Source of the DNA: Syntrophaceae bacterium
GTDB lineage: Bacteria; Desulfobacterota; Syntrophia; Syntrophales; Smithellaceae
Assembly (NCBI GenBank): GCA_003141615.1
Contig: PLMV01000168.1
Coordinates: 10,734-47,149, forward strand
Length of the DNA: 36,416 bases
Reading direction: 5' to 3'
In this document: positions 3,485-36,379 of the stretch, piece by piece
How positions within the stretch are numbered: position 1 is the stretch's first letter
How the letters are laid out: every line of letters begins with the position of its first letter
Translations under genes and position numbers: made by a program
Notes under the pieces: generated by a model
Database searches by the model: none
Seen by the model: the letters and a program-made list of their open reading frames with translations, nothing else
What the model was told of the DNA's origin: nothing

Positions 3485-3486
3485 CC

Positions 3487-4023
3487 ATGATGAATAAATT
3501 TAACATTAATATACACCAAAATAGTTTTTGGTATATAGTAACTTACAGCGGAATTATATTCCTTTTTGTGCTCGTAGGGATATTTCCTTTATATCACTAC
3601 AATTCCAATCTAATTGATAAGAATAAAAAATTAAAAAATCAAATCGAAGAGCAAAAGGAACTGGGGCCTGCCTATTTAACTTTGCTTAAGATTTTGAATA
3701 ATAAAGATTTACTTATTTTACCCAATCCCGAGAAAAAAACAATTCCCCGTGGAGAAACAGGAAAGTTTCAAGATGATATCCGGACGATAGCGGGGAGGGC
3801 CGGGTTAATGACGGTATCGCTTACGCCGGATTTGAGCACATTGGCGGGTTCCTCTACATCTCTTTTGCACAATGTTGTACTGAAAGGAGAATTTGCCAAT
3901 TTTCGAAAAATGTTGATCGGATTGGGAGCCGTTCCTTATTTGGATAGGATTGAGGAAATTAGTATCCTGCAAAATCCCGATTACATGGAGTTTAGAATGA
4001 AAATTTGGATAGCGCTTAAGTAG
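3487..4023 (+). CDS. PilO/MshJ-like inner-membrane protein
   Basis: 178 residues. A single N-terminal membrane helix (about 15-37) is followed by a charged coiled-coil stretch (about 41-60) and a small alpha/beta periplasmic domain. This is the PilO/GspM architecture, which pairs with PilN in the periplasm to align the platform with the secretin. Sequence identity to named families is too low for me to call from motifs alone, so the call rests on topology, size and position between the PilMN fusion and a PilP-like gene. Two adjacent ATGs (3487, 3490) are possible starts. Its order matches mshJ. Confidence 0.7.
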   Translation: MMNKFNINIHQNSFWYIVTYSGIIFLFVLVGIFPLYHYNSNLIDKNKKLKNQIEEQKELGPAYLTLLKILNNKDLLILPNPEKKTIPRGETGKFQDDIRTIAGRAGLMTVSLTPDLSTLAGSSTSLLHNVVLKGEFANFRKMLIGLGAVPYLDRIEEISILQNPDYMEFRMKIWIALK

Positions 4024-4043
4024 TTTATACGCAAAAGGTATTT

Positions 4044-4547
4044 ATGGCTAAGTTAAAAAAAAGAGAAATCATCATTTTAATAATTGCCGCTGTAGTTGTT
4101 TTCTATGCGGGTTATGAATACTTAATTGCCGCTCCGGCGAGTAAAAAAATTAAAACAAGTGCCGGTGCTGATTCTGTGAAAGTTGACACTTTTGCAAGCG
4201 GGATAATAAAAGATTTAGGTAAAGATAAAATCACCGATTTAGATGCATACGTGATCAGGCGAATGGAAACCGATTGGGGGAAAAATCCTTTCTGGAAAAA
4301 AGACTTGTATAAAGCATGGGTGAATAGAGAAGGGCTAGCCAAAAGCAGCGGTGCATTGGCTAAAATAATTTATTCCGGTTATGTAGATTCCGGGAAAAAT
4401 AAAATGGCTGTTATTAACGGTTTTGAATATAGGATAGGGGAACAATTAGAAATAGAAGGTTATGTGTTAAAGCAGATTACACCTTCTAGTGTTTTGATTT
4501 TCAATAAAAATACGGGAAACAAAGAAGAAATTCCCCTGCAAGAATAA
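4044..4547 (+). CDS. PilP/GspC-like (MshK position) periplasmic linker protein
   Basis: 167 residues: one membrane anchor (about 7-30), a variable linker, then a C-terminal beta domain of about 60 residues (from near 108). That domain has the PilP/GspC homology-region pattern: SGYVDSG, then an AVING strand, a GEQLEIEGY turn and a VLI strand. In type II secretion and type IV pili this domain bridges the inner-membrane platform and the N-domains of the secretin, which is encoded next. AAAAGG lies 5 nt before the ATG. Unlike PilP it shows no lipobox and keeps an uncleaved helix, as GspC does. Confidence 0.7.
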   Translation: MAKLKKREIIILIIAAVVVFYAGYEYLIAAPASKKIKTSAGADSVKVDTFASGIIKDLGKDKITDLDAYVIRRMETDWGKNPFWKKDLYKAWVNREGLAKSSGALAKIIYSGYVDSGKNKMAVINGFEYRIGEQLEIEGYVLKQITPSSVLIFNKNTGNKEEIPLQE

Positions 4548-4571
4548 AAATATCCATTGGAGGTTGTCGAT

Positions 4572-6155
4572 TTGAAATACTCTGCTAAAAATATCGTGAT
4601 GTTAGGTTTGGGTCTTTTCGTGCTGATATTTTTCTTCGGCTGTGCTGATGGACTTAAAAGCGAGAAAAAAGATCCTTTTTTTGAAAAATGGAATACTCTA
4701 GCCGAGAACTCGCAAGGTCACTCTCCTTCTGCCGTGCCGAAAAAAATTAATACATCAGCTTTAACGGCAAAACAAATTCCTTCTACTTCATTGGTAGGAC
4801 CAGAGATAAAAAAACTACCTGCCGAACGAATTAATTTGACCATGCGCCAGGCGGAGCTCAAAGCGGTATTGCGGGCAATGGCCAAATCTGTTGGTCTAAA
4901 CATTCTGGTGAAAAACGAGTTGAAAGCTGAAATTAACGTAGATTTCCGGGGTGTTCCCTGGGATAAAGCCTTTACCGGATTATTGCGCACCTATGGTTTA
5001 TCTTATATCTGGGAAGGCAATATAATCCGAGTGATGACTATCGATGACGTTGAACAGGACTTAAAGCGAAAAGTGCAATTGCGCGATATTCAATGGGTTG
5101 AGCCGCTTTTAGAGCCGGTAGTAATAAGCGTTAATTACTCCGACGCCGGAAAATTGAAGGATACGCTTTCGGCAATCCTGTCTAAAGATAAAGATGGAAA
5201 ACCGCGCGGATCGATTATAATTGATGAATACACCAATTCTCTGGTTGTTTCCGCTACGCGTGATGACCTGACCAGGATACTGCCGATTATTGAAAAACTA
5301 GATAAACCTACGCCGCAAATATTAATTAAAGCCAATATCGTGGAAACAACGAAAGGCGTAGCCCGGGATTTGGGAATTATGTGGGGAGGATACAATAAAG
5401 GTTCTAATATGTCTGGTAATAACGATCTTATTGTTACCGGTGGCAGTGTTTCTCCCTCGGGCAGTCTAGGAGCACAAGGATTAGGAGTGAATTTCCCCTC
5501 TCCCAATATATCATCATCTACTGCCTCTGCTTCTTTAGGTTTATTATTCGGAAAGGTTGGCGGAAATTTATTGGAAGTGCAATTGCAGGCCTTGCAGGCG
5601 GATAATAAGTTGAATATTCTCTCCAGTCCGTCAATAACAACTTTAGACAACATAAAAGCATATACGGAAAATGGTGAAAGAGTTCCCTTCGTTACACTTT
5701 CAACAACCACCAGCGGCGGCACACCTACTCAAACAACCACTTTTGTAGACGTTGTATTGCGTTTGGAAATTACGCCGCATGTAATTGACGGTAAAAGTTT
5801 AAAAATGGATATTTTAGTGAAAAAAGATGAAGTGGATACGACAAGGAAAGACAGCCTGGGAGATCCGTATATCATAAAGAAGCAAACTGAAACGAAGTTA
5901 GTTGTTCAAGATGGAGAAACAATAGTTATTTCCGGTTTAACTAAACAAACCAAATCAGCCGCTGGAAATGGTTTGCCGTGGTTAAAAGATATTCCCATTT
6001 TGGGCTGGGCTTTCAAGTCGGATAGTAAAAGTGACACTATGGAAGAAGTTCTTATATTTATTACTCCTCATATATTGCAAGTCGTTAATAATAACCAGAA
6101 TGCATCTCCGGTTGGACAAAATATTATACAAAAAAATGAAACTGACCAGAATTAA
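4572..6155 (+). CDS. mshL: Outer-membrane secretin, MshL/PilQ type
   Basis: Forms the outer-membrane channel through which the pilus emerges. The N-terminus is a lipoprotein-like signal ending in a Cys at about residue 23 (context FFFGC). An STN/secretin N-domain covers about 85-150, an N1-type domain about 165-250, and the C-terminal secretin barrel about 335-515. The barrel carries the family signature near 455-482: a GETIVISGL strand, then a LPWLKDIPILGWAFK turn. The start is taken as TTG at 4572, since GGAGG (4559-4563) lies about 8 nt upstream; an earlier TTG at 4557 overlaps that site. Product length (527 residues) suits MshL. No AMIN domains are present, which separates it from typical PilQ. 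Confidence 0.93.
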   Translation: MKYSAKNIVMLGLGLFVLIFFFGCADGLKSEKKDPFFEKWNTLAENSQGHSPSAVPKKINTSALTAKQIPSTSLVGPEIKKLPAERINLTMRQAELKAVLRAMAKSVGLNILVKNELKAEINVDFRGVPWDKAFTGLLRTYGLSYIWEGNIIRVMTIDDVEQDLKRKVQLRDIQWVEPLLEPVVISVNYSDAGKLKDTLSAILSKDKDGKPRGSIIIDEYTNSLVVSATRDDLTRILPIIEKLDKPTPQILIKANIVETTKGVARDLGIMWGGYNKGSNMSGNNDLIVTGGSVSPSGSLGAQGLGVNFPSPNISSSTASASLGLLFGKVGGNLLEVQLQALQADNKLNILSSPSITTLDNIKAYTENGERVPFVTLSTTTSGGTPTQTTTFVDVVLRLEITPHVIDGKSLKMDILVKKDEVDTTRKDSLGDPYIIKKQTETKLVVQDGETIVISGLTKQTKSAAGNGLPWLKDIPILGWAFKSDSKSDTMEEVLIFITPHILQVVNNNQNASPVGQNIIQKNETDQN

Positions 6156-6241
6156 AAGATTACCGGAACCACACAGAAAAACAAAACGGAATTGGACTCT
6201 AAGCAATAGCCGATGTTTAAACAGCAAGACGGCATTTAAAA

Positions 6242-7792
6242 ATGAATTATTACAATATTCTCCATTTTAAAAAAGAGCCATTTTCCAACTCACCGGAGCC
6301 GGAATTCCTTTTTCAATTGCCACAGCATACCGGTTGTTTACAAAAGCTGGAATTAGCTGTTCGACTGCGCCGTGGAATTAATGTGGTAATCGGAGACATC
6401 GGTACCGGAAAAACTACTTTATGTCGCAAGCTTATCCAGAACTTTTCTTCCACTCCGGCAGATTCTACGGAAATTGAAACTCACCTTTTGCTTGATCCGG
6501 CATTCAACAGCGCCGTTGAATTTTTGCAAACGGTCGCTTTGATGCTGGGAATTAAAGATTTAAATAATTGCGAAAGTGAATGGCATTTAAAAGAAAGAAT
6601 TAAGGATTATCTTTTTGATAAAGGTGTTGATGAAAAAAGAATAGTTGTCTTGATCATTGACGAAGGCCAAAAAATTCCCGAGAATTGCCTGGAGATTTTG
6701 CGTGAATTTCTTAATTACGAAACAAATAATTTTAAGTTGCTGCAAATAATAATCTTTGCTCAAAAAGAATTCCAAAAAATCCTTAAAAAACGCGCCAATC
6801 TTTTTGACCGGGTTAACCTTCTCTATCATCTCCGGCCTCTCAATTTTAAACAAATGCGGGCAATGATCAATTATCGTCTCAGTGTCGCCAGAGACTCTGA
6901 AATTGTGCCTTCGCTGTTTAGCTTTTGGGGGCTTGCGGCTATTTATCTGGCCACCGGCGGATATCCGCGCAAAGTTGTTTTTCTTTGCCATCAGGTAATT
7001 TTAAAGATGATCATTCGCGGCAAGAAAAAAGCCGGCTGGTTATTGGTCAGAAGTTGCATAAGAGGAATGGAGACGCCAGTATTTAGAAGATTAAGATGGG
7101 CGCTGGGGAGCGTATTAATTATCCTTGTTCTGGGTCTTTCGATAAGCGCAATTCTATTTCAGCATCGGGATGCTGACGCGCATAAACAATTACCGGCAGT
7201 TCCGGCGACCACTGTTGTTTCCGAAGTTAAACAAGCACCAGCGGCTTCCGTTTTACCTGATCCATTAATTATTCAGGAAGATAAAAATCAGGATATTAAA
7301 ATGCCTGAATATTTGGGAAAGTTAACAATGACAAAAAGAAGGACCATTTGGTGGACACTGCATAATATCTATGGCGCTGTCAGTCCCGAGATCATCAATG
7401 CGGTGACTACAGCTAATCCTCATATTAGAAATAAAGACATAATTTTGGAAGGAGATATAATAGTTCTTCCGTCAATTCCCGCAGATATAAAACCTGTAAA
7501 TAAAGGCGATATTATTGTTATTGTGGAAAATGGAAAAGATCTGGAAACCATGTATGATGTTTTTCGTGAAAATCCTGATCAGCAAAATATGCCTCCATTA
7601 GCTTTCTTTTCCTTCTGGAATAAGAAAGAAGGTATTAGCTTTGCGATTGTTATTGATAAATGTTTTAAAAATATTCGTGCTGCAGAAGAAGCAGTTGGCA
7701 AATTACCACCCATGACTGCCGCCAAAACAAAAATTTTATCTCAATGGAATGCGGATACAGTTTTTTTTAATCGCCGTGTATTGCAACATTGA
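6242..7792 (+). CDS. mshM: MshM/ExeA-type AAA+ ATPase with periplasmic LysM-like and SPOR-like tail
   Basis: Cytoplasmic ATPase domain (1-275) with Walker A GDIGTGKT at 51-58 and Walker B VVLIIDE at 135-141. The opening (PFSNSPEPEFLF) is typical of ExeA/MshM. One membrane helix lies at about 285-306. A Pro/Ala-rich linker, a LysM-like module (about 355-415) and a final ~90-residue SPOR-like segment would sit in the periplasm. ExeA relatives insert the secretin by combining ATP hydrolysis with peptidoglycan binding, so the tail fits secretin passage through the wall. Vibrio-type loci have mshN between mshM and mshE; here that gene is absent and the enlarged tail may take its place (inference). 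The ribosome site is weak, and an 86-bp gap separates the gene from the secretin. Confidence 0.85.
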   Translation: MNYYNILHFKKEPFSNSPEPEFLFQLPQHTGCLQKLELAVRLRRGINVVIGDIGTGKTTLCRKLIQNFSSTPADSTEIETHLLLDPAFNSAVEFLQTVALMLGIKDLNNCESEWHLKERIKDYLFDKGVDEKRIVVLIIDEGQKIPENCLEILREFLNYETNNFKLLQIIIFAQKEFQKILKKRANLFDRVNLLYHLRPLNFKQMRAMINYRLSVARDSEIVPSLFSFWGLAAIYLATGGYPRKVVFLCHQVILKMIIRGKKKAGWLLVRSCIRGMETPVFRRLRWALGSVLIILVLGLSISAILFQHRDADAHKQLPAVPATTVVSEVKQAPAASVLPDPLIIQEDKNQDIKMPEYLGKLTMTKRRTIWWTLHNIYGAVSPEIINAVTTANPHIRNKDIILEGDIIVLPSIPADIKPVNKGDIIVIVENGKDLETMYDVFRENPDQQNMPPLAFFSFWNKKEGISFAIVIDKCFKNIRAAEEAVGKLPPMTAAKTKILSQWNADTVFFNRRVLQH

Positions 7793-7815
7793 GGTGAGAG
7801 TTATCCGGAGGATAA

Positions 7816-9519
7816 ATGAAAATTAAAAAACGTCTTGGTGAAATACTTGTAAAAGAAGGACTTTTGACCGAAGAAATGCTCAAACAAGTTCTCATTGATC
7901 AAAAGAAAACTGATTTAAAGCTTGGCCAGTATTTAATCCGCAATGGAATCGTCCAGGAAAAACAAATAATAGAATTATTAAGCAAGCAACTCAATATTAA
8001 GAAATATCAAATGAACGATTTTCCCTTGGATCTGGATTTAGCGCGATACATACCAATTGAAATTGTACAAAAAAATCAAGTAGTTCCTCTAAAAATTAAC
8101 GGGAAGCTGTTGATGGTTGCAATTGTTGATCCTCTAGAAGTAACAATCTTGGATTCCATTGAAAAATTAAACAATATGGAGGTTGAACCGGTAATTTGTT
8201 CAGAGGCGGAAATCAATCAGCTCATCAGTAGTATGTACGGTATGCAATCCGATTTGGGCGAGATTATAGGAACAATGGAAGTAGACTCTAAGGTTGAGGA
8301 AGAGTCGGATAACAAAGATGAAGTCCAAGTCGCATCTCTACAGGATATGGCCGGAGAAGCGCTAGTTGTTCGTTTGACTAATTCTATTTTTGCTCAAGCT
8401 ATTCGCGATAAAGCAAGCGATATCCATATCAGTCCGCAACAAACTACTGTACAGTTGCGTTATCGCATTGATGGCAAGTTGATAGAAATGCCCTCACCTC
8501 CTAAATCTCTATTTTTGTCCGTAATTGCCCGTGTAAAGATTTTAGCCAATATGGACATTACTGTTTCCAGAATTCCTCAAGACGGCCGATTTACCCTCAA
8601 AATAGAAAAAAAAGAAATTAATGTCAGGGTCTCCTCAATTCCCACAATTCACGGAGAAAATATTGTCATGCGCCTGTTGGATATGGGCGCCGGTATTTAT
8701 ACACTAAATCGTTTGGGCATGAATGCCGAAGATATGGAAAAAATCGAAAACATATGCATTAAACCTTACGGTATGATTTTAAGTACCGGGCCCACGGGAA
8801 GCGGCAAAAGCACCAGTCTTTATGCAATCTTGAATTCAATAAACAAACCGGATATAAATATAATCACCTTGGAAGATCCCGTCGAATATAGAATCAATGA
8901 TATTCGCCAGGTGCAGTTAAACCGTAAAGCAGGAATGACATTCGCCAGTGGTTTGCGTTCAATTCTTCGTCAGGACCCTGATGTCATTATGGTTGGTGAA
9001 ATTAGAGATGCGGAAACTGCCGCAGTATCCGTGCAAGCGGCGCAGACGGGACATAGACTTTTGAGCACTGTGCATACTAATGATGCCGCAGGAGTTATCA
9101 CACGATTTATTGATATGGGCATTGAACCTTTCTTGATTTCTTCTGTTTTGATTGTTTCTTTTGCTCAACGATTAGTGCGCACCATTTGCCCCTATTGCAA
9201 AGAAAATTATAATCCGCCGGCAAGTGCTCTTGCTTCTTTTGGAATAACAACGGCAGAAGCAAATAACGCTAATTTTCAGCACGGTAAAGGCTGTAGTCAG
9301 TGCAAGAACACTGGTTACAAGGGAAGAACGGGTATTTTTGAGGTTTTAGTTAATGACGAGATAATTCAAGACATGATTATAAAACAAAGACCGAGCCCGG
9401 AAATTACACGCGCGGCAGTAGCTGCCGGAAAGTTAAAAACACTGAAAGAAGATGCGGCCCAAAAAGTAATTCAAGGGATTACAACTCTGGAAGAAGCGGC
9501 CTCCGCCGTAATGGCCTAG
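7816..9519 (+). CDS. mshE: MshE/PilB-type extension ATPase with a c-di-GMP-binding MshEN domain
   Basis: Hexameric ATPase powering pilus extension at the inner membrane. The N-terminus has the full MshEN signature: a 24-residue motif at 6-29 starting RLG, a 5-residue spacer at 30-34, and a second 24-residue motif at 35-58 starting KLG. This pattern defines the cyclic-di-GMP-binding domain of MshE. The second motif has Lys where Arg is usual. The motor part shows Walker A GPTGSGKS (325-332), Walker B IMVGEIRD (near 393-400), a His box (GHRLLSTVHTNDA) and a zinc tetracysteine (CPYC and CSQC) near the C-terminus. GGAGG precedes the ATG by about 4 nt. Retraction ATPase genes (pilT) are not in the window. 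Confidence 0.95.
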   Translation: MKIKKRLGEILVKEGLLTEEMLKQVLIDQKKTDLKLGQYLIRNGIVQEKQIIELLSKQLNIKKYQMNDFPLDLDLARYIPIEIVQKNQVVPLKINGKLLMVAIVDPLEVTILDSIEKLNNMEVEPVICSEAEINQLISSMYGMQSDLGEIIGTMEVDSKVEEESDNKDEVQVASLQDMAGEALVVRLTNSIFAQAIRDKASDIHISPQQTTVQLRYRIDGKLIEMPSPPKSLFLSVIARVKILANMDITVSRIPQDGRFTLKIEKKEINVRVSSIPTIHGENIVMRLLDMGAGIYTLNRLGMNAEDMEKIENICIKPYGMILSTGPTGSGKSTSLYAILNSINKPDINIITLEDPVEYRINDIRQVQLNRKAGMTFASGLRSILRQDPDVIMVGEIRDAETAAVSVQAAQTGHRLLSTVHTNDAAGVITRFIDMGIEPFLISSVLIVSFAQRLVRTICPYCKENYNPPASALASFGITTAEANNANFQHGKGCSQCKNTGYKGRTGIFEVLVNDEIIQDMIIKQRPSPEITRAAVAAGKLKTLKEDAAQKVIQGITTLEEAASAVMA

Positions 9520-9537
9520 GTTAAATAAGGATAAAAA

Positions 9538-10758
9538 ATGCCCAAATATATTTATCAAGCAATTAATGAAAGTGGAGATACAGCTTCAGGGACCTTAGAG
9601 GCTGAATCGGTTGAAGTAGCAAATTTCATGTTGATCTCACGCAATCTTATACCATCAAAGATTAAGGAACAGACTGAATCCGGAGATAATCATTGGTTGA
9701 AAGCTATTTTCGGCACAGGCACAGTTAAGGTGATGGATCTGATTATGTTTACAAAACAATTCCATTCTATGCTTGTTGCCGGTATACCGCTGTTAAGAAT
9801 TATGTCTATTTTAGAGGATCAGACAGAAAGTAAAGGTTTAAAGGACGCAATATCAAAAATTATTCAAGATATTAATCAAGGCTTGTCTCTTTCAGATGCA
9901 TTAGATAAACATCCCAAAATATTTTCACGCCTGTACTGCGATATGATCAAGGCAGGTGAAATGAGCGGAAATGTGCCCATCGTTTTAGATCGTTTAATCT
10001 ATATTATTGAACATGAAGCAAAAGTCAAATCAGATATCAAATCGGCATTCAGATATCCTCTAATAGTTGTTATCGCTTTAGGCATTGCTTTTATTGTTCT
10101 TTTAACTTTTGTAATACCTCAATTTGCTTCTATTTTCAACAGCGCCGGTTTGGTTTTACCGTGGCCGACAAAATTTGCCATGTTTTTATACGCTTTTCTG
10201 TCTAATTACTGGTATTTGATTATTGCTGTAATAGTAATAACTGTTTTTGGCATGATTTCCTATTTTAAAACAAGTAATGGCAAGTTCGTAAGGGATTCTT
10301 TTTTATTAGAAATGCCTATAATAGGGCCAGTATTCAAGAAGGCGGCATTATCGCGTTTTGCCAGTATTTTTGCTATCTTGCAAACCAGCGGTGTTCCTAT
10401 TATGCAATCATTGACTATTCTTTCTGCAACAATGGGCAACGAGGCTCTTACGCGATCTTTTGATCATATCCGTGAGCGCATTAAAGAAGGCGCCGGAATT
10501 TCGACGCCATTAAGATCGGCAAAATATTTTACCCCGATGGTTATTGATATGATCGCGATTGGTGAAGAGTCAGGAAATATTGATGAAATGTTGCGCGCAG
10601 TTGCCAAGCACTATGATGATGAAGTTGAGTATGCAATTAAAGGTCTTTCCGATGCAATAGGTCCAATTCTCATTGTTGGTTTAGCTGCAATTGTTGGCTT
10701 CTTTGCCCTGTGCATATTTTTACCCATGTGGGATCTTACAAAGCTGGCAAAACAATAA
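9538..10758 (+). CDS. mshG: MshG/PilC/GspF-type inner-membrane platform protein
   Basis: Polytopic platform protein that couples the extension ATPase to pilin assembly. 406 residues with two GspF-type repeats: the first covers about 70-190, the second about 270-390. Each has a cytoplasmic helical bundle (FTKQFHSMLVAGIPLLRIM; ASIFAILQTSGVPIMQSL) and each is followed by membrane helices near 170-190, 220-240 and 375-398. The small N-terminal domain opens with the usual PKYIYQAINESGD pattern. The gene starts 18 bp after mshE and ends the uninterrupted assembly operon. Confidence 0.93.
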   Translation: MPKYIYQAINESGDTASGTLEAESVEVANFMLISRNLIPSKIKEQTESGDNHWLKAIFGTGTVKVMDLIMFTKQFHSMLVAGIPLLRIMSILEDQTESKGLKDAISKIIQDINQGLSLSDALDKHPKIFSRLYCDMIKAGEMSGNVPIVLDRLIYIIEHEAKVKSDIKSAFRYPLIVVIALGIAFIVLLTFVIPQFASIFNSAGLVLPWPTKFAMFLYAFLSNYWYLIIAVIVITVFGMISYFKTSNGKFVRDSFLLEMPIIGPVFKKAALSRFASIFAILQTSGVPIMQSLTILSATMGNEALTRSFDHIRERIKEGAGISTPLRSAKYFTPMVIDMIAIGEESGNIDEMLRAVAKHYDDEVEYAIKGLSDAIGPILIVGLAAIVGFFALCIFLPMWDLTKLAKQ

Positions 10759-10790
10759 TGATGGAAACGTAACAATTAGACAACTTTTTA

Positions 10791-10820
10791 CGCGCCATGA
10801 AGAGCACGCGATGTGGCGCG
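10791..10820 (+). other. GC-rich hairpin between mshG and the sigma-54 activator
   Basis: CGCGCCA (10791-10797) pairs perfectly with TGGCGCG (10814-10820) around a 16-nt loop, in an otherwise AT-rich 145-bp spacer. No T-run follows, so it is not a clear intrinsic terminator. It could slow transcription or protect the upstream mRNA end. Confidence 0.45.
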
Positions 10821-10903
10821 AGGTCACACGAGGGCACAAGCGGGAAAAGTTAAAACAGGTAAAATCAGACTGTTTACGAATTCAGCATTAGATAGATAAA
10901 GGA

Positions 10904-12226
10904 ATGAAGAAAAAAAATATTTATATAAGCTTTTATATATTGATTCCGGCAATTTACACTGGAATATCAATGATTGGTATTATTGTAACATATCAATTAT
11001 TTAAACAACCCGAAAAAATCAACCAGATATCTTCCCTGAATTTCGTTTATTTGATCGCAGTAATGGCGTTTTTTACTCTTTCTATAAGTTTCCTTCTCCT
11101 GCGCTTTTTTTTAACACCCTTCATACGATTTGTTAATAAAACGCAGAAGATGTCCATTCTTGCCAATTCCCAGTTAGGAAAACAAGAAAGAATAACGGAC
11201 GATTTTGATCAAATTACCAAACTATTTGATAACGTAGCGAATATTCTGAGCAACGTTGAAGCAAAAGAATTATTTCCCCATATTATTGGTTCCAGCGCTT
11301 CTATGCGCAATATTTTTACACAAATAATAAAAGTCGCATCGACCGATTCCACAGTTCTTATTTCCGGTGAAAGCGGGACAGGCAAGGAATTAATCGCTTC
11401 GAGTATTTACGAACATAGCATGAGGAAAGGCAAGCCTTTTATAAAAATTAATTGTGTGGCCATTCCGGAAGGATTGCTGGAGAGCGAACTTTTTGGTCAT
11501 GAGAGAGGTTCATTTACCGGTGCCACCGAACAAAAAAAAGGAAAGTTTGAAATAGCCAATAACGGCACGATTTTTCTGGATGAAATTGGGGACATGCCCT
11601 TAGCTACGCAGGCGAAACTCTTACGTGTTTTACAGGAAAAAGAATTTGAAAGGGTAGGTGGAACAAACCTTATTCGGGTGGACATCCGTTTTATTGCGGC
11701 TACGAATAAAAAATTGCCCGAAATGATTAAGAAAGGAACATTTAGAGAAGACCTTTATTTTCGTTTAAATGTTTTTTCAATATCCATCCCTGCGCTCAGA
11801 GAGAGAAAAGAGGATATTCCTCTAATATCAAATTATTTTCTGGAGTCTTTGCCCAAGCCGGCAAAGTTGTCAACTTCAGCGCTGCAGGAATTAATTGGTT
11901 ACTCCTGGCCGGGAAATATCAGAGAGCTGAGAAATATTTTGGAGCAAGCTTCTATATTGAGTGAAAATGGTATTATTGAATTGCATCATTTACCGGGAGC
12001 ACTATTGAAGCAAAATTCACAAAGTGTGGTAAATAATTTAAGTGATGATATGGCTCTTGACGCTAAGCTCGAGTTAATGGAAAAAGAGATAATTATTGCC
12101 GCTTTGAAAAAAACAAGAGGAATTCAAGTAAAGGCAGCAAATATTTTAGGGATAAATCAGAGAAGCCTTTGGCATAGAATTAAGAAGTATAATATTGAAA
12201 TAAACACCTTTAGGAATCTACAATAA
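10904..12226 (+). CDS. Membrane-anchored sigma-54 enhancer-binding activator
   Basis: 440 residues. The N-terminus has two membrane helices (about 5-30 and 46-71) followed by a short HAMP-like linker (about 72-125). There is no CheY-type receiver and no recognisable PAS or GAF domain. The AAA+ sigma-54 interaction domain spans about 127-355, with Walker A GESGTGKE (155-162), the sigma-54 contact loop as GSFTGA (202-207, a tolerated variant of GAFTGA), and Walker B TIFLDEIGD. The C-terminus carries a Fis-type helix-turn-helix (about 400-430). It sits immediately before a -24/-12 promoter and the pilin gene, the natural target. Type IV pilins are commonly activated by PilS/PilR, but this protein merges membrane location and activator. 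Its AAAGGA abuts the ATG with no spacer, suggesting weak translation. Confidence 0.92.
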   Translation: MKKKNIYISFYILIPAIYTGISMIGIIVTYQLFKQPEKINQISSLNFVYLIAVMAFFTLSISFLLLRFFLTPFIRFVNKTQKMSILANSQLGKQERITDDFDQITKLFDNVANILSNVEAKELFPHIIGSSASMRNIFTQIIKVASTDSTVLISGESGTGKELIASSIYEHSMRKGKPFIKINCVAIPEGLLESELFGHERGSFTGATEQKKGKFEIANNGTIFLDEIGDMPLATQAKLLRVLQEKEFERVGGTNLIRVDIRFIAATNKKLPEMIKKGTFREDLYFRLNVFSISIPALRERKEDIPLISNYFLESLPKPAKLSTSALQELIGYSWPGNIRELRNILEQASILSENGIIELHHLPGALLKQNSQSVVNNLSDDMALDAKLELMEKEIIIAALKKTRGIQVKAANILGINQRSLWHRIKKYNIEINTFRNLQ

Positions 12227-12234
12227 TTGTAGAT
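12216..12234. promoter_or_regulatory. Palindrome at the activator stop codon, candidate enhancer site
   Basis: A perfect inverted repeat with 8-bp arms (ATCTACAA at 12216-12223, TTGTAGAT at 12227-12234) has the TAA stop codon of the activator gene as its 3-nt centre. No T-run follows. It lies about 180 bp upstream of the predicted sigma-54 start point, a usual distance for an activator binding site, and it has the dyad form expected for a Fis-type dimer. Use as an enhancer is inference. Confidence 0.45.
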
Positions 12235-12380
12235 AGTTCACTAAAAAATTGCATTTTACTGGTAAGTCAGGTAAGGTAGGTTGCAAGAAATAGAGTTGAC
12301 AAAAAATAAAAGTTAAGCTAATTAAACACATTAGAAAAACATCGGGTGAAAAGAGAAAAAAATGTTTATTGTCTTGGTAA

Positions 12381-12396
12381 TGGCATAGCTTTTGCT
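12381..12396 (+). promoter_or_regulatory. Sigma-54 (-24/-12) promoter of the pilin gene
   Basis: TGGCAT, five bases (AGCTT), then TTGCT: the GG and GC dinucleotides have the exact 10-bp spacing required by sigma-54 holoenzyme, and only the C of TGGCAC is changed. The predicted start is near 12407, leaving about 69 nt of leader before the ATG at 12476. An activator of the right class is encoded just upstream. Confidence 0.85.
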
Positions 12397-12475
12397 ATTA
12401 TATAATTGTTTTAGAAGAATTAAAAGAGAGTAATCATAATAAAAAAAATAACTAAAATTAAGAAAGGAGAAAAAA

Positions 12476-12844
12476 ATGTTAAGAAATGAGAAAGGTTTTA
12501 CGTTGATTGAAATCATAGCGGTCTTGGTTATTTTGGGAATTCTCGCCGCGGTGGCTATTCCGAAGTACTTCGATTTGATGTCGCAATCAAGATTGAATGC
12601 TGCACAAACTGCAGTTGCTGAAATGCAAGCTCGCGCGAGTAATACTTACGCCAAAAATCTTTTGCTAAGCGCGACGAATACTTGTACGGGTATTGCAGGC
12701 GCTGTAGGTACCAATCTTGGTGATTATACGGTCGCTGTACCTACGTGTGACGCCTCAAGCGTTATGACCATTGTAGTATCAGCAGTAAAAGGTGTTGCCT
12801 TAACCTCTAATATTACTGGAACTTGGACAATGCCAACTACATAA
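12476..12844 (+). CDS. Type IV pilin, probable major (MshA-like) subunit
   Basis: A class III-type prepilin of 122 residues. The short basic leader MLRNEKG is cut after Gly7; Phe8 would be methylated and Glu12 is the conserved +5 Glu of the mature helix. The hydrophobic helix runs about 8-31. Only two Cys (70 and 91) are present, so they can form one C-terminal disulfide loop. AAAGGAG sits 6 nt before the ATG, a strong site. With its own sigma-54 promoter and its own terminator the gene is a monocistronic, potentially highly expressed unit, as expected for the main pilus subunit. The Ser/Thr-rich C-terminal half offers possible O-glycosylation sites (inference). Prepilin peptidase is not encoded here. 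Confidence 0.92.
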   Translation: MLRNEKGFTLIEIIAVLVILGILAAVAIPKYFDLMSQSRLNAAQTAVAEMQARASNTYAKNLLLSATNTCTGIAGAVGTNLGDYTVAVPTCDASSVMTIVVSAVKGVALTSNITGTWTMPTT

Positions 12845-29888: not shown

Positions 29889-30128
29889 AAAGGAGCGCCT
29901 CCACATTTTGCGAACTAACCGTACTATTTTTAATTTATTTTGTCCAAAATTATTTCATCATAATATTGGGACCGGTTGATTATCTGTTTTGAGCTTTAAA
30001 AACTGAAATTAAGCCGAATTTACTTGATATTAGATTGTCAAGGTAATATTATTAAAAATATGTTTCATTATATTGCGGGCACGGCATGTTGCGGCAGTTA
30101 AACATTATCCCCGAATAGAAAAGTGACA

Positions 30129-30668
30129 ATGGATCAAAAAATTGAAGCAGACATTGTTGCCAGGGTTTTGAAGGGAGACAGGCAAGCTTATGCTTTGTTG
30201 GTTGAAGAGTATAAATCACCTATTTATAATTTAGCTTACCGCATGACCGGAAATTCAGAGGATGCCGATGATTTAACGCAGGAGACATTTATACACGCAT
30301 ATCAATACTTATGGCGATATGACACACACAGGAAATTCTTTACCTGGCTTTACACCTTGGCTTTAAATTTAATCAGAAGCCATTTTAAAAAAAATAAATA
30401 CAACAAATCTTCTGAAGAATTAAGTGCACATTTATTGTCCGATAAAAATCCTTCGCCGGAAACCGAATTAATAGAAACTCAAGAGATAAGTGTCTATCTC
30501 TTGCGGCTGGAGTATGAATCCAGAGCATTGCTAATTATGAAATTTCATCAGGGATTAACTTTTGAAGAAATTGCCCAGATTACCGGCAAATCGCTCAGTG
30601 CCGTTAAAATGCGCATATATCGCGGACTGGAAAAATTGAAAGAATTGCTGAGAGAATCACAGGTATAA
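30129..30668 (+). CDS. ECF-type (sigma-70 family) RNA polymerase sigma factor
   Basis: About 179 residues with only regions 2 and 4. Region 2 shows YNLAYRMTGNSEDADDLTQE, then FFTWLYTLALNLIRSHFKK. Region 4 shows LTFEEIAQITGKSLSAVKMRI followed by YRGLEKLKELL, the DNA-reading helix-turn-helix. The ATG at 30129 follows an AGAAAAG stretch at a suitable distance; a GTG at 30123 is possible. It lies upstream of the anti-sigma-like gene and the minor-pilin genes on the same strand, but a 477-bp hairpin-rich spacer intervenes. The promoter it recognises is not identified. Confidence 0.92.
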   Translation: MDQKIEADIVARVLKGDRQAYALLVEEYKSPIYNLAYRMTGNSEDADDLTQETFIHAYQYLWRYDTHRKFFTWLYTLALNLIRSHFKKNKYNKSSEELSAHLLSDKNPSPETELIETQEISVYLLRLEYESRALLIMKFHQGLTFEEIAQITGKSLSAVKMRIYRGLEKLKELLRESQV

Positions 30669-30711
30669 ACCCCAAAGCAAGCTGCGGGGTATTATGCCCC
30701 GCTTATGCGGG
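30669..30711 (+). terminator. Overlapping alternative hairpins after the ECF sigma gene
   Basis: Three mutually exclusive pairings overlap: ACCCC (30669-30673) with GGGGT (30686-30690), GCGGGG (30684-30689) with CCCCGC (30697-30702), and CCCGC (30698-30702) with GCGGG (30707-30711). They start right at the sigma stop codon. There is no T-run, so this may be a Rho-type or attenuator-like structure, or a REP-like element. Confidence 0.45.
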
Positions 30712-31145
30712 ATGAATTCAACTTACAAATATTACGGCACTACGTTTGTAATATTTGAGTTTCATCAATTCCATTTACGCTTCAAATTTCGTTTTACTCA
30801 TTTTCAGCGAATGTCATTGATTCGACCGGCAAGCTTCAGTCGCAGATGACCTTCAGGTTATACACTTTGTTTCTGAAGTTTGGGTCTCGTATATAGTCCC
30901 ACTTAGCTTCGCACGTGGGATATCCCCGCGTCGCTCCACTCTTGGGATAATTCGACTAACGCTTCAAACTTCACTTCGTTCGTTTTCATTGAGTCTAATT
31001 ACAACTTATAGATATTACTTCGCTGTGCTTGTAATATCTGAGTTTCATTAAATTGGAGTTTCAATAATAAAATTTGTGACTATTTGGCCTTTGGAGTTAT
31101 ATATATAGTATAAAGTATAAAAGAATAGATTTTAAAAAGGTATTT
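30712..31145. repeat. Palindrome-rich spacer with a duplicated 45-bp hairpin unit
   Basis: No gene is seen. Two 45-bp units (30721-30765 and 31004-31048, 36 of 45 identical) each form a hairpin with a 12-nt loop: CAAATATTAC (30726-30735) with GTAATATTTG (30748-30757), and AGATATTAC (31010-31018) with GTAATATCT (31031-31039). A third hairpin, TCCCAC (30897-30902) with GTGGGA (30915-30920), also has a 12-nt loop. A fourth pairs CTTCAG (30851-30856) with CTGAAG (30873-30878). Similar blocks starting CGCTTCAAA recur at about 30778 and 30960. It resembles a cluster of REP/BIME-like elements. Confidence 0.65.
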
Positions 31146-31715
31146 ATGGAAGAATATGATAAAATAACAAAGAAAATCAAAGAGATAAACACAGTAAAGC
31201 CTGGTTCCGATTTGACGCCGGCTATAATGCATAAAATTAGTCAAATCAATGAACGACGTTATGCCTGGATATGGAGAAGAGCATTTTTTTTGATTAAAGA
31301 CATATTCGCCACATCGCCAACAAAAGAGGAATGTGTTATGTCCTTTATATCGATGGGAGTATTTTATCTGATTTTTGGTTTGATGCTTTTATTTTTCATA
31401 AAAAGTGCACCAGCAAATTCAGAGATTAATAGCTGGTTAAAATTACAATCACCAGTTTTAATTCTCGTTGCTTTATGGCTTACTGTTCTGGGTAGCGCTG
31501 TATGGTTTATGGGAAGAAAGGCGGTTCGGTTTGCCCGCTGGGGATTATTTATATATATTTTAATATTTGTTGTTAGCACGGCGGTGATGTCATCGGATGG
31601 AAATTTTGCATTACTGTTGGGAACTGGTTTATCAATAGGTGCGGTACTTACAGGAATATCGCTTAATTTTTCCGTAGAAAAATATGGATGCGCGTCAAAT
31701 ATGAGCAGAGGGTAA
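31146..31715 (+). CDS. Four-helix membrane protein, anti-sigma-like N-terminus
   Basis: 189 residues. A cytoplasmic N-terminus of about 60 residues precedes four predicted membrane helices (about 66-86, 96-117, 126-146, 150-172). The stretch KPGSDLTPAIMHKISQINE resembles the Pro-Asp-Leu plus Met-x-Lys-Ile segment common in membrane anti-sigma factors of ECF sigmas, but no His-Cys-Cys zinc motif is present. Following the ECF sigma gene on the same strand, it is a candidate regulator of that sigma (inference). Its stop is 4 bp before the first minor-pilin ATG, so it heads the minor-pilin operon. AAAAAGG lies 5 nt before the ATG. Otherwise I recognise no named family. Confidence 0.6.
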   Translation: MEEYDKITKKIKEINTVKPGSDLTPAIMHKISQINERRYAWIWRRAFFLIKDIFATSPTKEECVMSFISMGVFYLIFGLMLLFFIKSAPANSEINSWLKLQSPVLILVALWLTVLGSAVWFMGRKAVRFARWGLFIYILIFVVSTAVMSSDGNFALLLGTGLSIGAVLTGISLNFSVEKYGCASNMSRG

Positions 31716-31719
31716 ATGC

Positions 31720-32247
31720 ATGAAAACATATAGTAACAGGAGTGGTTTTACTCTTATTGAAGTTATTGCGATTTTAGTTATTATTGGTATTATTACAGCG
31801 TTAGCCGTAACGAGGTTTTCCTCCAACCCAAATAATCTTATTTCCGCTAAGGATACACTAACTTCTCATTTGCGGTTGGCGCAAGCAAGAGCGATGAACA
31901 CTTCCGCAGATAACATAACTACCTTTAGTGTTTGGGGCGTGCGCTTTATCTCCACAACGCAGTATCATCTTTTTTACTGTGCTAATGCCAGCACCTGTGA
32001 TCCAACCATTGCCGCCAATCAGACTGCTTTCCTCGGTGCAGGCAGTACCATTATAGATCTTGCCCCAAAAGGAGTGCAGGTAACAAACGGCGCTTTAATT
32101 CTTGCGTTTGACCGCTTCGGTACGCCTTTTACTAATGCCGCTTTAACAACGAGTCTTGCCACTCAATTAACTCTTACTTTGCAAGATAACAAGGGCAACA
32201 CCAGGACAATTAATATTACACCGCAGACAGGGATGATAACATCATGA
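31720..32247 (+). CDS. Minor pilin/pseudopilin, GspH/MshC-like
   Basis: 175 residues. Prepilin leader MKTYSNRSG is cut after Gly9; Phe10 starts the mature helix and Glu14 is the +5 Glu. After the hydrophobic stretch a GspH-like pattern follows: helix SHLRLAQARAMNT, beta strands, and a late FDRFGTPF strand of the type found in FimT/GspH proteins. Two Cys near 87-95 may form a disulfide. GAGGG lies 7 nt before the ATG. It is first in the series of four pilin-like genes, matching the mshC position. The ATG of the next gene overlaps its stop by 4 nt. Confidence 0.85.
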   Translation: MKTYSNRSGFTLIEVIAILVIIGIITALAVTRFSSNPNNLISAKDTLTSHLRLAQARAMNTSADNITTFSVWGVRFISTTQYHLFYCANASTCDPTIAANQTAFLGAGSTIIDLAPKGVQVTNGALILAFDRFGTPFTNAALTTSLATQLTLTLQDNKGNTRTINITPQTGMITS

Positions 32248-32684
32248 AAAAAAGTAAACGAAGATGGACCCAGAAGGGGTTTACCCTTATTGAATTAATA
32301 ATTACGCTGGTATTGGTTTCCGTAATGGCAGTAATGCTTTCAACCTTTAGTCGACCGCTTTTCAGCAGACTTGGTGCTTTCAGCTGGTTTAATGACGAAC
32401 TTCTTTTGCAGCAAAACATGGAAAAAATTCTAGGCGACTATAAATATCAAAGAAATGATATCAATAATCCCTTCGATCCCGGCGTATTCCGGCAGTATGT
32501 TATCAGCAAATATTCTCCATTGGTTGATGCCAGCAGAACCGGATTTCTTACTTTTACTAACGTAGGAATGACCTATACAGCAGCATGGCCGCCACAGGCC
32601 AATATACCACCCGGCAGTGCACCGCCGGTGCTTATTATCACGGTCCACAGAAATAATATGACTCTTTCGATGATTGTTACTTGA
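32244..32684 (+). CDS. Minor pilin-like protein, MshD position
   Basis: 146 residues. Leader MKKSKRRWTQKG is cut after Gly12; the mature helix starts FTLIELIITLVLV with Glu17 as +5 Glu. The mature part is short, with helix NDELLLQQNMEKIL and a beta-rich C-terminus rich in Pro (PPQANIPPGSAPPV). Its start overlaps the previous stop (ATGA), indicating coupled translation. Beyond the prepilin signature the family cannot be named with certainty; order suggests an mshD equivalent. It would be a tip or priming subunit processed by the prepilin peptidase. Confidence 0.8.
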   Translation: MKKSKRRWTQKGFTLIELIITLVLVSVMAVMLSTFSRPLFSRLGAFSWFNDELLLQQNMEKILGDYKYQRNDINNPFDPGVFRQYVISKYSPLVDASRTGFLTFTNVGMTYTAAWPPQANIPPGSAPPVLIITVHRNNMTLSMIVT

Positions 32685-32698
32685 TGAAGGGGTGGATT

Positions 32699-33334
32699 AT
32701 GAAAGTTATGAAAAAAAGCAGCGCCGGATTTACCCTGATCGAAGTTATTGTCAGTCTGGTTTTAATGAGCATTGTGGGTGTCGTTGCCGCAATGGCCCTT
32801 GTGCAAGGCATAGAGGCATATGTGATAACACGGACTAGTTCCGAAACAGTACAACGGGCGGAGTATGCTCTTAACCGCATCAAACTGGAATTTATGAATA
32901 TGGATACTGTTACCGCTGCTGGTGCTGATACAATTACTTTTACTTCTGACAAAACTAATGGCAGAACCCAGGGGACTGTATACACATTTACGCGTACCGG
33001 CACTCAGATTAATTTAACTGTTACTTCACCCGCGGGAGCAGCATCAACGAACGCACTAATTACCGGTTTGGGTACTTATGGGACAGGATTATTTACTTAT
33101 TGGAACAATGCAGGCGGGGCATGGGCGCCAACTGATGGATTTGGTAGAACTGGTAGTACCCCCTCCACGTGTCCCTCCACTTCCTATTGTTGCTCCGGTT
33201 CCCTCCATGACATAACGATTAATCTAATTATTGCCCGGTCGGATGGCGGCGGTAACCTTACTTTTACCACATCCGTTAATCCCCGGAATAATGAATGTAC
33301 CGACGGACCGGAAGCGACAGCGGGAAGCCAATAA
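32699..33334 (+). CDS. Minor pilin-like protein, MshO position
   Basis: About 211 residues. Leader MKVMKKSSAG is cut after Gly10; mature helix FTLIEVIVSLVLMSIVG with Glu15 as +5 Glu. An AEYALNRIKLEF helix near 60-72 is typical of GspJ/PilW/MshO-like subunits. A Gly/Thr/Ser-rich beta domain follows, with a Cys cluster (PSTCPSTSYCCSG near 158-170) and a further Cys close to the C-terminus. The ATG at 32699 is chosen for its AAGGGG 6 nt upstream; in-frame starts at 32681-32684 overlap the previous stop without such spacing. The gap to the adhesin-like gene is 54 bp. Confidence 0.82.
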   Translation: MKVMKKSSAGFTLIEVIVSLVLMSIVGVVAAMALVQGIEAYVITRTSSETVQRAEYALNRIKLEFMNMDTVTAAGADTITFTSDKTNGRTQGTVYTFTRTGTQINLTVTSPAGAASTNALITGLGTYGTGLFTYWNNAGGAWAPTDGFGRTGSTPSTCPSTSYCCSGSLHDITINLIIARSDGGGNLTFTTSVNPRNNECTDGPEATAGSQ

Positions 33335-33366: not shown

Positions 33367-33402
33367 ATGAAAGTGGAAAGGTTGCAATATGAAACAAGAT
33401 AA
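33367..33402 (+). other. Short leader ORF overlapping the adhesin start
   Basis: ATG at 33367 opens an 11-codon frame that contains the ribosome site of the adhesin gene (AAAGG, 33377-33381) and ends 14 nt past its ATG in another frame. Translation of this leader could couple to or compete with adhesin initiation. It may also be chance. Confidence 0.25.
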
Positions 33403-36379
33403 CTCAATATCCAGTCTCGCAAGGTCTCAATGCAAATTATATCCGCACAGCGGTGGTTCGATGATGGTGAACATTATTATAATTATAGTTATTTTTGCCT
33501 CCATTCTCTCTGCAGTTGTTTATATGTCTTCATCGAGCCTGCGTCAGGCAGTATCATCCAATCAAGGCGCCAATGCCTGGAATATGGCGGAAGCAGGCTA
33601 CCGTTTTCTGTCCATAAATTATTTAAAGACGACTGATGGTACTTATCTCCCGGCAAATGGAACTGCAGATGATGATAAGGCTTACTTTCTCCAAAGTGTC
33701 GTCAATGGCCGGACTTATGTTATCCCCAACAACGGCTCATTTACGTTAACAGTTCAACCGTATTGGTTTTATAATGCAACCGCGACGGGCACGATAACCA
33801 ATGTCAGCGTGCAGCTTCCCGGAACCACGCCGAATAATTTTACGTCGATGCCGGCAACAGGGCAGATCAAATTATTAGATTCGCACGGTGTTGAAGGATT
33901 AACAAGCTATACATTCGGATCATTCAATAGCCTCACAGGAGTTTTTACGTGTACAATCAGTCCTTACCCACTTAGCCCTTCCCCTCCCCCTCCCGCTCCT
34001 CCTTACAGTGGTTACAGTGTTTATCTGGTGCTGAACCCGAAAGTAAATCAAGCTTTAACACAAGCGCCGGGCAATAATACTTTAACGCTTGATCTCAATA
34101 CTTTCTCCGCCTCCGCAGCTGCATTTCCTGCTAAAGATGGATTAATTGAAATAGGATCAACGGAGTTTCCTTCAGGAGAGACTAAACTATACCGTTACAG
34201 CACGGCTAAAGCAGTTGGCACGGTTCTGACACTGTATGGCCTGCGGCATTCAGACAACTCTGCTTTTAGTATCCACGTCACTACTACACCAGCATCAACA
34301 ATAACATTTAAAAAATATCTTATGGCTCAATCAATCGGTAAAGTAGGGTCGGAGCAGCGCACCTTGAGTTTTAGCCAGGCGATCTTGGACAGTTTCCCCC
34401 CAACATCCTTAGTTACAACCTTAGGTACGGCGGCGGAACTTACTGGCAATTTTTCTCGCAGTTCTTCGATAGGTGGTTATGAGGTTGCCAACCTTCAAAC
34501 GTCGGGTGGAGGATACGCCTATTTTTCCATTATCGACTCTCTTGCGACAACCGGCACCGGCGCCAGCGCCTATAACTGTGGAGCTTTTTGGTACAGTAAC
34601 ACCAGCTTGATCAACAAGGTATGGGCTCCTCCTCCGGTAGGTTCAGGTATATACTTGCTTTCTTATGATGTTCAAGTCAAACCGGCCACGGGTAATGCAT
34701 TAACGGCTGGAACAATAGGTTTGGCTATCCGCGCTAAAATGGTTACATCCACAACAGAGCCTGATACATATTTGGCTTTAACGTTCATGAAGTATGATCT
34801 GGCCAATTTATATTTTACCTTAGACCCGTTATTATTCTTCACTTTCACCAATGGTGGTACAACGGCTATTAGTTCTGGCAATACAGTAGTCGGAGCGAGT
34901 AGCGGCGCGACGGGAGTTGTCCAGGGAACTCCCGTGTTGACCTCCGGTTCGTGGGCGGGAGGCGATGCGGCAGGAATAATAATATTTGCTTCGGTGACCG
35001 GCACATTTTCCGCCGGTGAAGGGCTGATGGTTGGCGGTGTTAATAGAGCGAAAGTAAGCCCTTTATTATTCACCAATGGTGGTACAACGGCTATTAATTC
35101 TGGCGATACAGTAGTCGGAGCGAGTAGCCACGCGACCGGAGTTGTCCAGGGAACGCCTGTGTTGACCTCCGGTTCGTGGGCGGGCGGCTGTGCGGCAGGA
35201 AAAATCATATTTGCTTCAGTGACCGGCACATTTTCCGCCGGTGAATGGCTGAGTGTTGGCGGTGTTAATAGAGCGAAAGTAAGCTCTACAATTAACCTAT
35301 TTAACCCCGGCGATACTTTGACTGGAGCGAGTAGCGGCGCGATCGGAGTTGTCCAGGGAACGCCGGAGCTGACCTCCGGTTCGTGGGCGGCCGGCAAAGC
35401 GAATGGAAAAATCAGATTTGCCTCAGTGACCGGCACATTTTCCGCCAATGAACGGCTGAGTGTTGGCGGTGTTCCTAGAGTTCAAGTAAATGGCAGCAAC
35501 TATTTCCCCGCGGCAAATCCGACAGATTATATACCCCAAACAATTAAGCCCAAACCGTCTGATTTTGAGACTACCCTCGGTACCAGTAGTCCCTTTTATT
35601 GTTCCCGATATAATATCGGTCCTCTGCTGCTGGTTTTGTGGGAGCGTAAAGCAGATGGCACCTTCCGCTGGCTGGCCTTTAAAGATATTAGCAATGATGA
35701 CTATACCAAGGGACTTCAAGACTGGGTTGAACCAAATGGAAGTTGCACCAACCCCCCCAGCAATTGTCCTGGAAGTGACGGACAGATTATTGATGACAAT
35801 GCTTCTATTTACATCCGTATTCAGGAAAAGAGGGTAGTTCTTGGAGCTCCGCCGGCGGTTAAGGTAAACGATATCAATCTGTTTTACGGTGACGATTCTA
35901 CGCGTTATATAGCGCCGACGTGGCCGGCGCGGCCGGGCAATACAATACCTTATGATATAAAAGAGTTAAGACGGCTCTATATTGCCGGCGCTTCGCCGCT
36001 TGTATTGACCTGGGTGCCCGATTATATCGCTCAATGGGACGCAACAGTGGACTACTTTTCCCATATCGAGAGCGGAACTCCAAAGGGTTCTCAGCCGCAG
36101 TTTCAGTGGGATGCCGTTAATCCCAACGTGACGGATATAACTGTTCTCAAGATATGTGATGATGGTTCGGCAGCCTGTACCAGCGCGCCGAATGGCACAT
36201 TGCGTCTTACTGAATTGGTTACACCGGATTCAGGAACATATAATCAACCGGAAATCGGCATGCTCGCCTGCGGTAAAGTCACTACAAGTCCTTATTCAAC
36301 TGCCGGTTTTGCTGAATTTGGCTTCAAAACACCGGGAACTACCTCTGGCGGATTCACCGATACAACTTTATACTGGTAA
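33389..36379 (+). CDS. Large PilX/MshP-like tip protein with tandem repeats, putative adhesin
   Basis: 996 residues. The N-terminus lacks a G-FTLIE site but has the PilX/MshP form: SGGSMM, a hydrophobic helix (about 27-46), then NMAEAGYRF (65-73). The Ala-Glu-Ala-Gly element is typical of that family. The rest is a long extracellular Gly/Ser/Thr-rich beta region. Three tandem repeats of about 70-78 residues (481 to about 700) carry TVVGASSGATGVV, GSWAGG and GTFSAGE motifs. The C-terminal 300 residues match no domain I can name; an MshQ-type ending is not evident. Position after the MshO-like gene suggests it combines the MshP and MshQ roles as a pilus-tip adhesin. AAAGG lies 7 nt before the ATG. 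Confidence 0.8.
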   Translation: MKQDNSISSLARSQCKLYPHSGGSMMVNIIIIIVIFASILSAVVYMSSSSLRQAVSSNQGANAWNMAEAGYRFLSINYLKTTDGTYLPANGTADDDKAYFLQSVVNGRTYVIPNNGSFTLTVQPYWFYNATATGTITNVSVQLPGTTPNNFTSMPATGQIKLLDSHGVEGLTSYTFGSFNSLTGVFTCTISPYPLSPSPPPPAPPYSGYSVYLVLNPKVNQALTQAPGNNTLTLDLNTFSASAAAFPAKDGLIEIGSTEFPSGETKLYRYSTAKAVGTVLTLYGLRHSDNSAFSIHVTTTPASTITFKKYLMAQSIGKVGSEQRTLSFSQAILDSFPPTSLVTTLGTAAELTGNFSRSSSIGGYEVANLQTSGGGYAYFSIIDSLATTGTGASAYNCGAFWYSNTSLINKVWAPPPVGSGIYLLSYDVQVKPATGNALTAGTIGLAIRAKMVTSTTEPDTYLALTFMKYDLANLYFTLDPLLFFTFTNGGTTAISSGNTVVGASSGATGVVQGTPVLTSGSWAGGDAAGIIIFASVTGTFSAGEGLMVGGVNRAKVSPLLFTNGGTTAINSGDTVVGASSHATGVVQGTPVLTSGSWAGGCAAGKIIFASVTGTFSAGEWLSVGGVNRAKVSSTINLFNPGDTLTGASSGAIGVVQGTPELTSGSWAAGKANGKIRFASVTGTFSANERLSVGGVPRVQVNGSNYFPAANPTDYIPQTIKPKPSDFETTLGTSSPFYCSRYNIGPLLLVLWERKADGTFRWLAFKDISNDDYTKGLQDWVEPNGSCTNPPSNCPGSDGQIIDDNASIYIRIQEKRVVLGAPPAVKVNDINLFYGDDSTRYIAPTWPARPGNTIPYDIKELRRLYIAGASPLVLTWVPDYIAQWDATVDYFSHIESGTPKGSQPQFQWDAVNPNVTDITVLKICDDGSAACTSAPNGTLRLTELVTPDSGTYNQPEIGMLACGKVTTSPYSTAGFAEFGFKTPGTTSGGFTDTTLYW
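34829..35494 (+). repeat. Three tandem ~205-234-bp repeats inside the adhesin gene
   Basis: Units are about 34829-35062, 35063-35288 and 35289-35494. Units 1 and 2 are nearly identical, apart from a 9-bp insertion near the start of unit 1 and scattered changes. Unit 3 is more divergent at its beginning. Shared blocks include GGAGTTGTCCAGGGAAC and GTGACCGGCACATTTTCCGC. All are in frame. Confidence 0.9.

Follow-up and report, generated by a model that had tools for sequence, protein, structure and literature searches.

The 36,416-nucleotide stretch of a metagenome-assembled Syntrophaceae bacterium genome analyzed here (assembly GCA_003141615.1, contig PLMV01000168.1, positions 10,734 to 47,149; hereafter the window) carries a type IV pilus gene set and, further along, a minor-prepilin operon headed by the gene for a four-helix membrane protein (MEM), which is in turn preceded by a gene for an extracytoplasmic function (ECF) sigma factor (SIG) (Table 1). 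SIG is a 179-aa protein with region 2 and region 4 domains only, as in the ECF (group 4) sigma factors. Both Sigma70_r2 (PF04542, E=4e-18) and Sigma70_r4_2 (PF08281, E=7e-11) are above their Pfam cut-offs, and among NCBIfam models SigW scores best (E=3e-34, under that model's cut-off). MEM has four hydrophobic helices, placed by AlphaFold at residues 60-87, 96-122, 125-148 and 153-188 with a mean predicted local distance difference test (pLDDT) score of 82, and carries no extracytoplasmic domain. Its gene ends 4 bp before that of the first prepilin, and the prepilin cleavage/methylation motif (N_methyl, PF07963) is above cut-off in all three prepilins, marking them as type IV minor pilins. The original prediction, made from the letters of this stretch, had described the same succession of an ECF sigma, a four-helix protein and, 4 bp on, the first minor pilin, and all of it is borne out. 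The operon closes with a 996-aa protein, likely a tip protein, which has no Pfam family in a Pfam search; the last gene in many relatives encodes a protein of 1,000-1,300 aa with a prepilin motif at its start. Very probably, SIG and MEM form an ECF sigma/anti-sigma pair that serves as a dedicated switch for the minor-pilin operon of an MSHA-like type IV pilus, a reading built on comparisons of sequence and gene order.

Table 1. Features of the window considered in the text, numbered from its first letter
Feature	Coordinates	Strand	Evidence
Sigma-70-like promoter of SIG, TTGATA-N17-TATTAT at 30024-30052, conserved flank TTTACTTGATATT	30017-30052	+	Consensus scan, conservation
ECF sigma factor (SIG)	30129-30668	+	Pfam, NCBIfam, alignment A1, tree
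Dispersed-repeat cluster in the SIG-MEM gap, lineage-specific	30669-31060	+	65 matches in own genome
Predicted SIG-dependent promoter TGTGACTATTTGGCCTTTGGAGTTATATAT, -35 TGTGACT, -10 [G/A]TATAT	31075-31104	+	Conservation, position weight matrix, core at related ECF loci
Zinc-less four-helix anti-sigma-like protein (MEM)	31146-31715	+	Profile, structure model, gene order
Minor prepilin, GspH/FimT-like	31720-32247	+	N_methyl E=1e-6; TIGR01708 E=9e-10, under its cut-off
Minor prepilin	32244-32684	+	N_methyl E=3e-7; TIGR02532
Minor prepilin, PilV/PilW-like	32681-33334	+	N_methyl E=1e-7; TIGR02523 E=1e-5, under its cut-off
Large protein (996 aa), PilX/GspK-like N-terminus, three internal repeats	33389-36379	+	Sequence, relatives
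Sigma-54-type activator beside the major pilin gene (12476-12844)	10904-12226	+	Near-consensus sigma-54 site at 12381-12395

Homologues of MEM occur in 34 of 99 relatives in a single-sequence search and in about 49 of the 155 genomes of the class in a profile search (a count that leaves out three tail-only matches), the close ones coming from Syntrophaceae and Smithella. Across the 155 genomes, SIG and MEM are found together in 44, MEM without SIG in 5, and SIG without MEM in 3. Of 48 scored rows, 31 have SIG on the same strand no more than 600 bp upstream of MEM, and 39 have it within ~5.5 kb; for some loci at which the two are unlinked, a SIG-clade gene is present elsewhere in the genome. 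A prepilin gene directly follows MEM in every one of the 45 loci with enough downstream sequence, and where contigs allow the order to be read, SIG is usually followed by MEM, then by two or three prepilins and the large protein. This association of SIG, MEM and pilins is not due to chance, and it recurs across the order. The original prediction would have been undercut had homologues of the membrane protein never turned up near ECF sigmas; they are usually found beside this one ECF clade.

At the MSHA-like locus of one genome (G031; L258, 10474-15010), neither SIG and MEM nor the genes for the minor pilins and the large protein lie at this position, which is bounded by the pilus core and by an aminopeptidase-like gene found after the cassette in other genomes. 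This pattern suggests loss or gain of the cassette as a unit. Moreover, 46 genomes with the PilM marker hold neither SIG nor MEM, and the pair hence represents an accessory layer. At L146 and L147 (G115 and G116), two MEM genes are divergent, with prepilins after each and the promoter element described below at only one of the pair. SIG and MEM are 477 bp apart here, a gap that the original prediction did not mention; the close relative G010 has 240 bp there, and for several other relatives the distance is 44-70 bp. In the window, the gap was dropped as a candidate regulatory region because short dispersed repeats make up most of it. An Rfam search of the region gave no credible match.

The N-terminal tail of MEM

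The cytoplasmic tail of MEM reads K-PGSDLTPAIMHKI, and a 27-member alignment conserves PPxx[LF]TxxVMxRI. It had earlier been likened to the PxDLxxxxMxKI segment of membrane anti-sigmas; the kinship to RsiW and other anti-sigma factors stands, with the correction that the spacing is PxxDL instead of PxDL. The zinc motif, HxxxCxxC, is absent from MEM and its homologues, as had been noted for MEM, and this sets them apart from the zinc anti-sigma (ZAS) proteins. Pfam and NCBIfam searches with MEM and its alignment returned nothing above cut-off, and the only significant Protein Data Bank (PDB) match of the MEM profile is to residues 47-78 of RsiW, the anti-SigW factor (E=0.003). The monomer model has a helix at residues 2-13 followed by one at 23-55 (tail pLDDT ~70-78), the two-helix zinc-less arrangement of class II anti-sigmas such as CnrY. 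From the class I anti-sigma domain (ASDI), the three-helix bundle alpha1-alpha3 is missing, with just the short helix 2-13 preceding the alpha4 helix, and the sigma2-binding alpha4 segment is recognizable by homology only (to RsiW 47-78 and to zinc anti-sigmas beside ECFs). The tail begins at the equivalent of RsiW residue ~40, and its residues 2-35 are the counterpart of the C-terminal alpha3 part, loop and alpha4 of the RsiW domain. Matches to the tail alone in other genomes served as a blind check: an ECF gene immediately precedes 18 of the 20, and HxxxCxxC stands just before the match in 15 of the 20; a tail-only profile recovered 15 further loci, 14 beside a detected ECF and the remaining one on a short contig. 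In sequence, the MEM tail shows kinship to the end of true anti-sigma factors that binds the sigma.

The SigW-RsiW structure shows three binding motifs. One is on alpha1; the other two, of 1316 and 1805 Å2, are located on alpha3 (its C-terminal half) and on alpha3/L4 and occupy the grooves of sigma4 and sigma2 (PMC5358783). According to the same authors, the short motif of CnrY corresponds to alpha3 and alpha4 and has a similar binding mode (PMC5358783), and in a coevolution study helix 4 of class I anti-sigma domains is assigned to sigma2, at the core RNA polymerase site (PMC7406223). Because the RsiW counterpart of the tail fills both grooves and helix 4 covers the polymerase site, MEM is predicted to inhibit SIG. 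The converse, that MEM binds SIG as a positive partner or membrane recruiter and that SIG is inactive without it, is very improbable on the same structural evidence, although a positive loop is formally possible, given that the predicted SIG-dependent promoter makes MEM.

With SigW/RsiW of Bacillus subtilis, an ECF with a class I zinc anti-sigma, the pair shares the best scores of SIG, which are against SigW models, the aligned tail segment and membrane anchoring; it differs in that MEM lacks the zinc core and alpha1-alpha2 and has four transmembrane helices where RsiW has one, in the promoter core TGTGAC/GTATA, and in the apparent target, a single pilin operon. The zinc-less two-helix tail, equivalent to RsiW alpha3-alpha4, is common to MEM and the class II minimal anti-sigma of CnrY/CnrH from Cupriavidus metallidurans (PMC5358783, PMC7406223); however, no CnrY chain is found among the PDB matches of the MEM profile up to E=10, the transmembrane part is different, and no metal-sensing partner is seen.

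The two-box element upstream of MEM

A two-box element with the consensus TGTGACTTTTT-N-GTTGTATAT, in which GTGACT and GTATAT are separated by 16 or 17 nt, lies upstream of MEM. The copy in the window ends 41 bp before the MEM start and scores 29.7 with the position weight matrix, the next best site in the 36 kb scoring 15.4. Of 54 MEM loci, 50 have the element ahead of MEM or of its operon (three of the four that lack it are interrupted by a contig end or Ns), and it stays at the MEM operon even where SIG is elsewhere. With a strict pattern applied to 40 genomes, it is found at MEM in 21 of the 25 SIG-positive ones, and matches away from MEM number 5, against 7 for a reversed-pattern control; at this stringency the element occurs about once per genome. 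Its absence from SIG-negative genomes was not counted as independent evidence, the whole cassette being missing in the one such locus read through. The element resembles SigW promoters, which are of the form TGAAAC-N16-CGTATA. That it is instead the operator of another regulator, and no ECF promoter at all, is hardly credible: its very high conservation and the likeness of TGTGA to a CRP half-site would fit, but two boxes with a variable 16-17-nt spacer are more in keeping with a promoter than with a rigid operator, there is no palindrome, and related ECF genes have the core upstream of them too.

This predicted ECF-type promoter sits between SIG and MEM, and consequently SIG itself would not be transcribed from it in most genomes, this one included. 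SIG has what looks like its own conserved sigma-70-like promoter, within a TTTACTTGATATT block (TTGATA-17-TATTAT) kept ~100 bp upstream of the gene in many relatives and present once per genome in 9/9 genus genomes. The conservation of this block exceeds the needs of a plain sigma-70 promoter, and a regulator site is possible there. The conserved TTACTTGATATT block upstream of SIG was at first a candidate for the ECF promoter; it agrees better with a sigma-70 promoter (TTGATA-17-TATTAT), and the ECF-type element turned up ahead of MEM instead.

The core of the element extends to related ECF systems with other sensors. Zinc-less anti-sigma-like proteins with a MEM-like tail and juxtamembrane segment, a single transmembrane helix and a CBM48 or TPR part are encoded at L120, L122, L124 and L131, with further examples at L263, L264 and L265 (CBM48) and L274 (TPR). 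The sigmas of the first four fall on the SIG side of the tree, apart from the zinc-type sigmas, the exact branching not being resolved. In 28.5 kb of four pilin-free SIG-related loci, GTGAC-N17/18-GTATA occurs 5 times (0.02 expected), three of the sites being upstream of the sigma gene, as against 0 sites in 90.5 kb of zinc-type loci; among new loci, the core is present in 4/5 zinc-less systems and 0/10 zinc-type ones. It is this sharing of the core by related ECFs in pilin-free operons that links the promoter to SIG. The CBM48/AMPK1_CBM or TPR anti-sigmas, like MEM in tail, juxtamembrane segment, SIG-side sigmas and promoter core, differ from it in the single transmembrane helix, the extra domain and the absence of pilins. 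The zinc-type DUF2275 anti-sigmas beside ECFs in the same phylum resemble MEM in the segment after HxxxCxxC and in the position of the gene directly after the ECF, but have zf-HC2 and DUF2275, sigmas in a separate group, and no GTGAC/GTATA element. These comparisons suggest that, within one ECF clade, a zinc-less shortened anti-sigma tail has been joined to several kinds of sensor, namely four transmembrane helices, CBM48 and TPR. The fifth zinc-less system, L272 (G189), from another family of the phylum, is a distant cassette of SIG, a short protein with four transmembrane helices and a prepilin, with GTGACTTTTTTT upstream of SIG.

A rival account would make MEM a pilus-assembly or pilin-accessory protein that heads the operon, with sigma-70 reading it and SIG functionally unlinked. 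MEM is indeed tied more tightly to prepilins (45/45) than to SIG (31/48), and the element matches TTGACA at 4/6 positions. We nevertheless regard this account as improbable, since MEM co-occurs with one ECF clade, its tail has its relatives in the sigma-binding segments of anti-sigma factors, and the promoter core is also found at related ECF operons without pilins.

A proposed switch for the minor-pilin operon

From the gene order, the co-occurrence, the homology of the tail to anti-sigma factors and the promoter core common to related ECFs, all computed directly, we infer that MEM binds and inhibits SIG, that the promoter depends on SIG, and that the circuit has feedback. SIG would be made from its own sigma-70-like promoter and kept at the inner membrane by the MEM tail (short helix, PP/PG linker, second helix), which corresponds to the C-terminal half of RsiW alpha3 plus L4/alpha4 without the zinc-binding three-helix core. 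A signal perceived through the four transmembrane helices of MEM would release SIG, and the freed SIG-RNA polymerase would read one promoter, TGTGACT-N16/17-GTATAT, just upstream of MEM, yielding more MEM, minor pilins and the large tip-like protein. As the target operon also encodes the anti-sigma, this would amount to negative feedback. The switch, made up of SIG, MEM and one matching promoter, appears to control only the pilus tip-protein genes in this syntrophic soil/sediment bacterium. With no domain of MEM outside the membrane, a signal inside it is favored, and our guess is that MEM responds to the pool of pilins there or to their state of assembly; pilin supply has likewise been proposed as an in-membrane signal for the PilS sensor kinase. 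A pilus-monitoring, single-operon ECF switch, in which MEM senses pilins or their assembly in the membrane and sets the tip and initiation proteins apart from the major pilin, is a tentative extension of the scheme.

Several points weigh against the sigma/anti-sigma reading. In the inspected f6 loci (genus g12 and G098), the element is not before MEM but runs across the start codon of SIG, such that a transcript from it would begin inside the SIG gene; the loci concerned are L039, L042, L044, L063, L140, L142 and L143. In a few genomes MEM is present but no SIG-clade member was detected, and a contig edge is no explanation in G117 and G138. The tail is short, ~35 residues, its match to RsiW depends on a single segment (E=0.003), and a PDB fold search with the MEM model gave no match at E<=0.001. 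Finally, sigma-70 could in principle read the promoter, as GTGACT resembles TTGACA.

Our searches of the open-access literature turned up no description of an ECF/anti-sigma pair dedicated to minor pilins. Pilus assembly is initiated by minor pilins, which also shape the tip; a separate switch for them, if real, would permit pilus number or tip to be changed without altering the supply of the major pilin. The mechanism lends itself to testing in E. coli, given an exactly located predicted promoter, a candidate sigma-binding peptide of 35 residues and a set of related sigmas whose sensor parts are exchanged.

Pilus context and the sigma-54 layer

The type IV pilus set at 1613-12844 comprises a PilM-like protein, a secretin, an ExeA-like ATPase, an extension ATPase, a GspF-like platform protein, the sigma-54-type activator and the major pilin. 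A control layer for the minor pilins distinct from the sigma-54 control of the major pilin had been proposed in the original prediction, and the dedicated ECF-type promoter before MEM and the minor pilins lends it support. In G076, the SIG gene follows a sigma-54-type activator. The locus resembles the MSHA-type loci of Vibrio and Shewanella in its PilM-like protein, secretin, ExeA-like ATPase, MshE-type extension ATPase, GspF-like platform, pilins and large protein; we know of no ECF/anti-sigma pair at those loci. The secretin fails the MshL equivalog TIGR02519 (111 bits versus a cut-off of 250) and passes PilQ, for which reason we call the pilus only MSHA-like. The large protein of the minor-pilin operon has three near-identical ~65-aa repeats (window 34850-35450; TAI.SG.TVVGASS.ATGVVQGTP...), and the extension ATPase (window 7816-9519) contains an MshE-type cyclic di-GMP-binding domain (NF053729).

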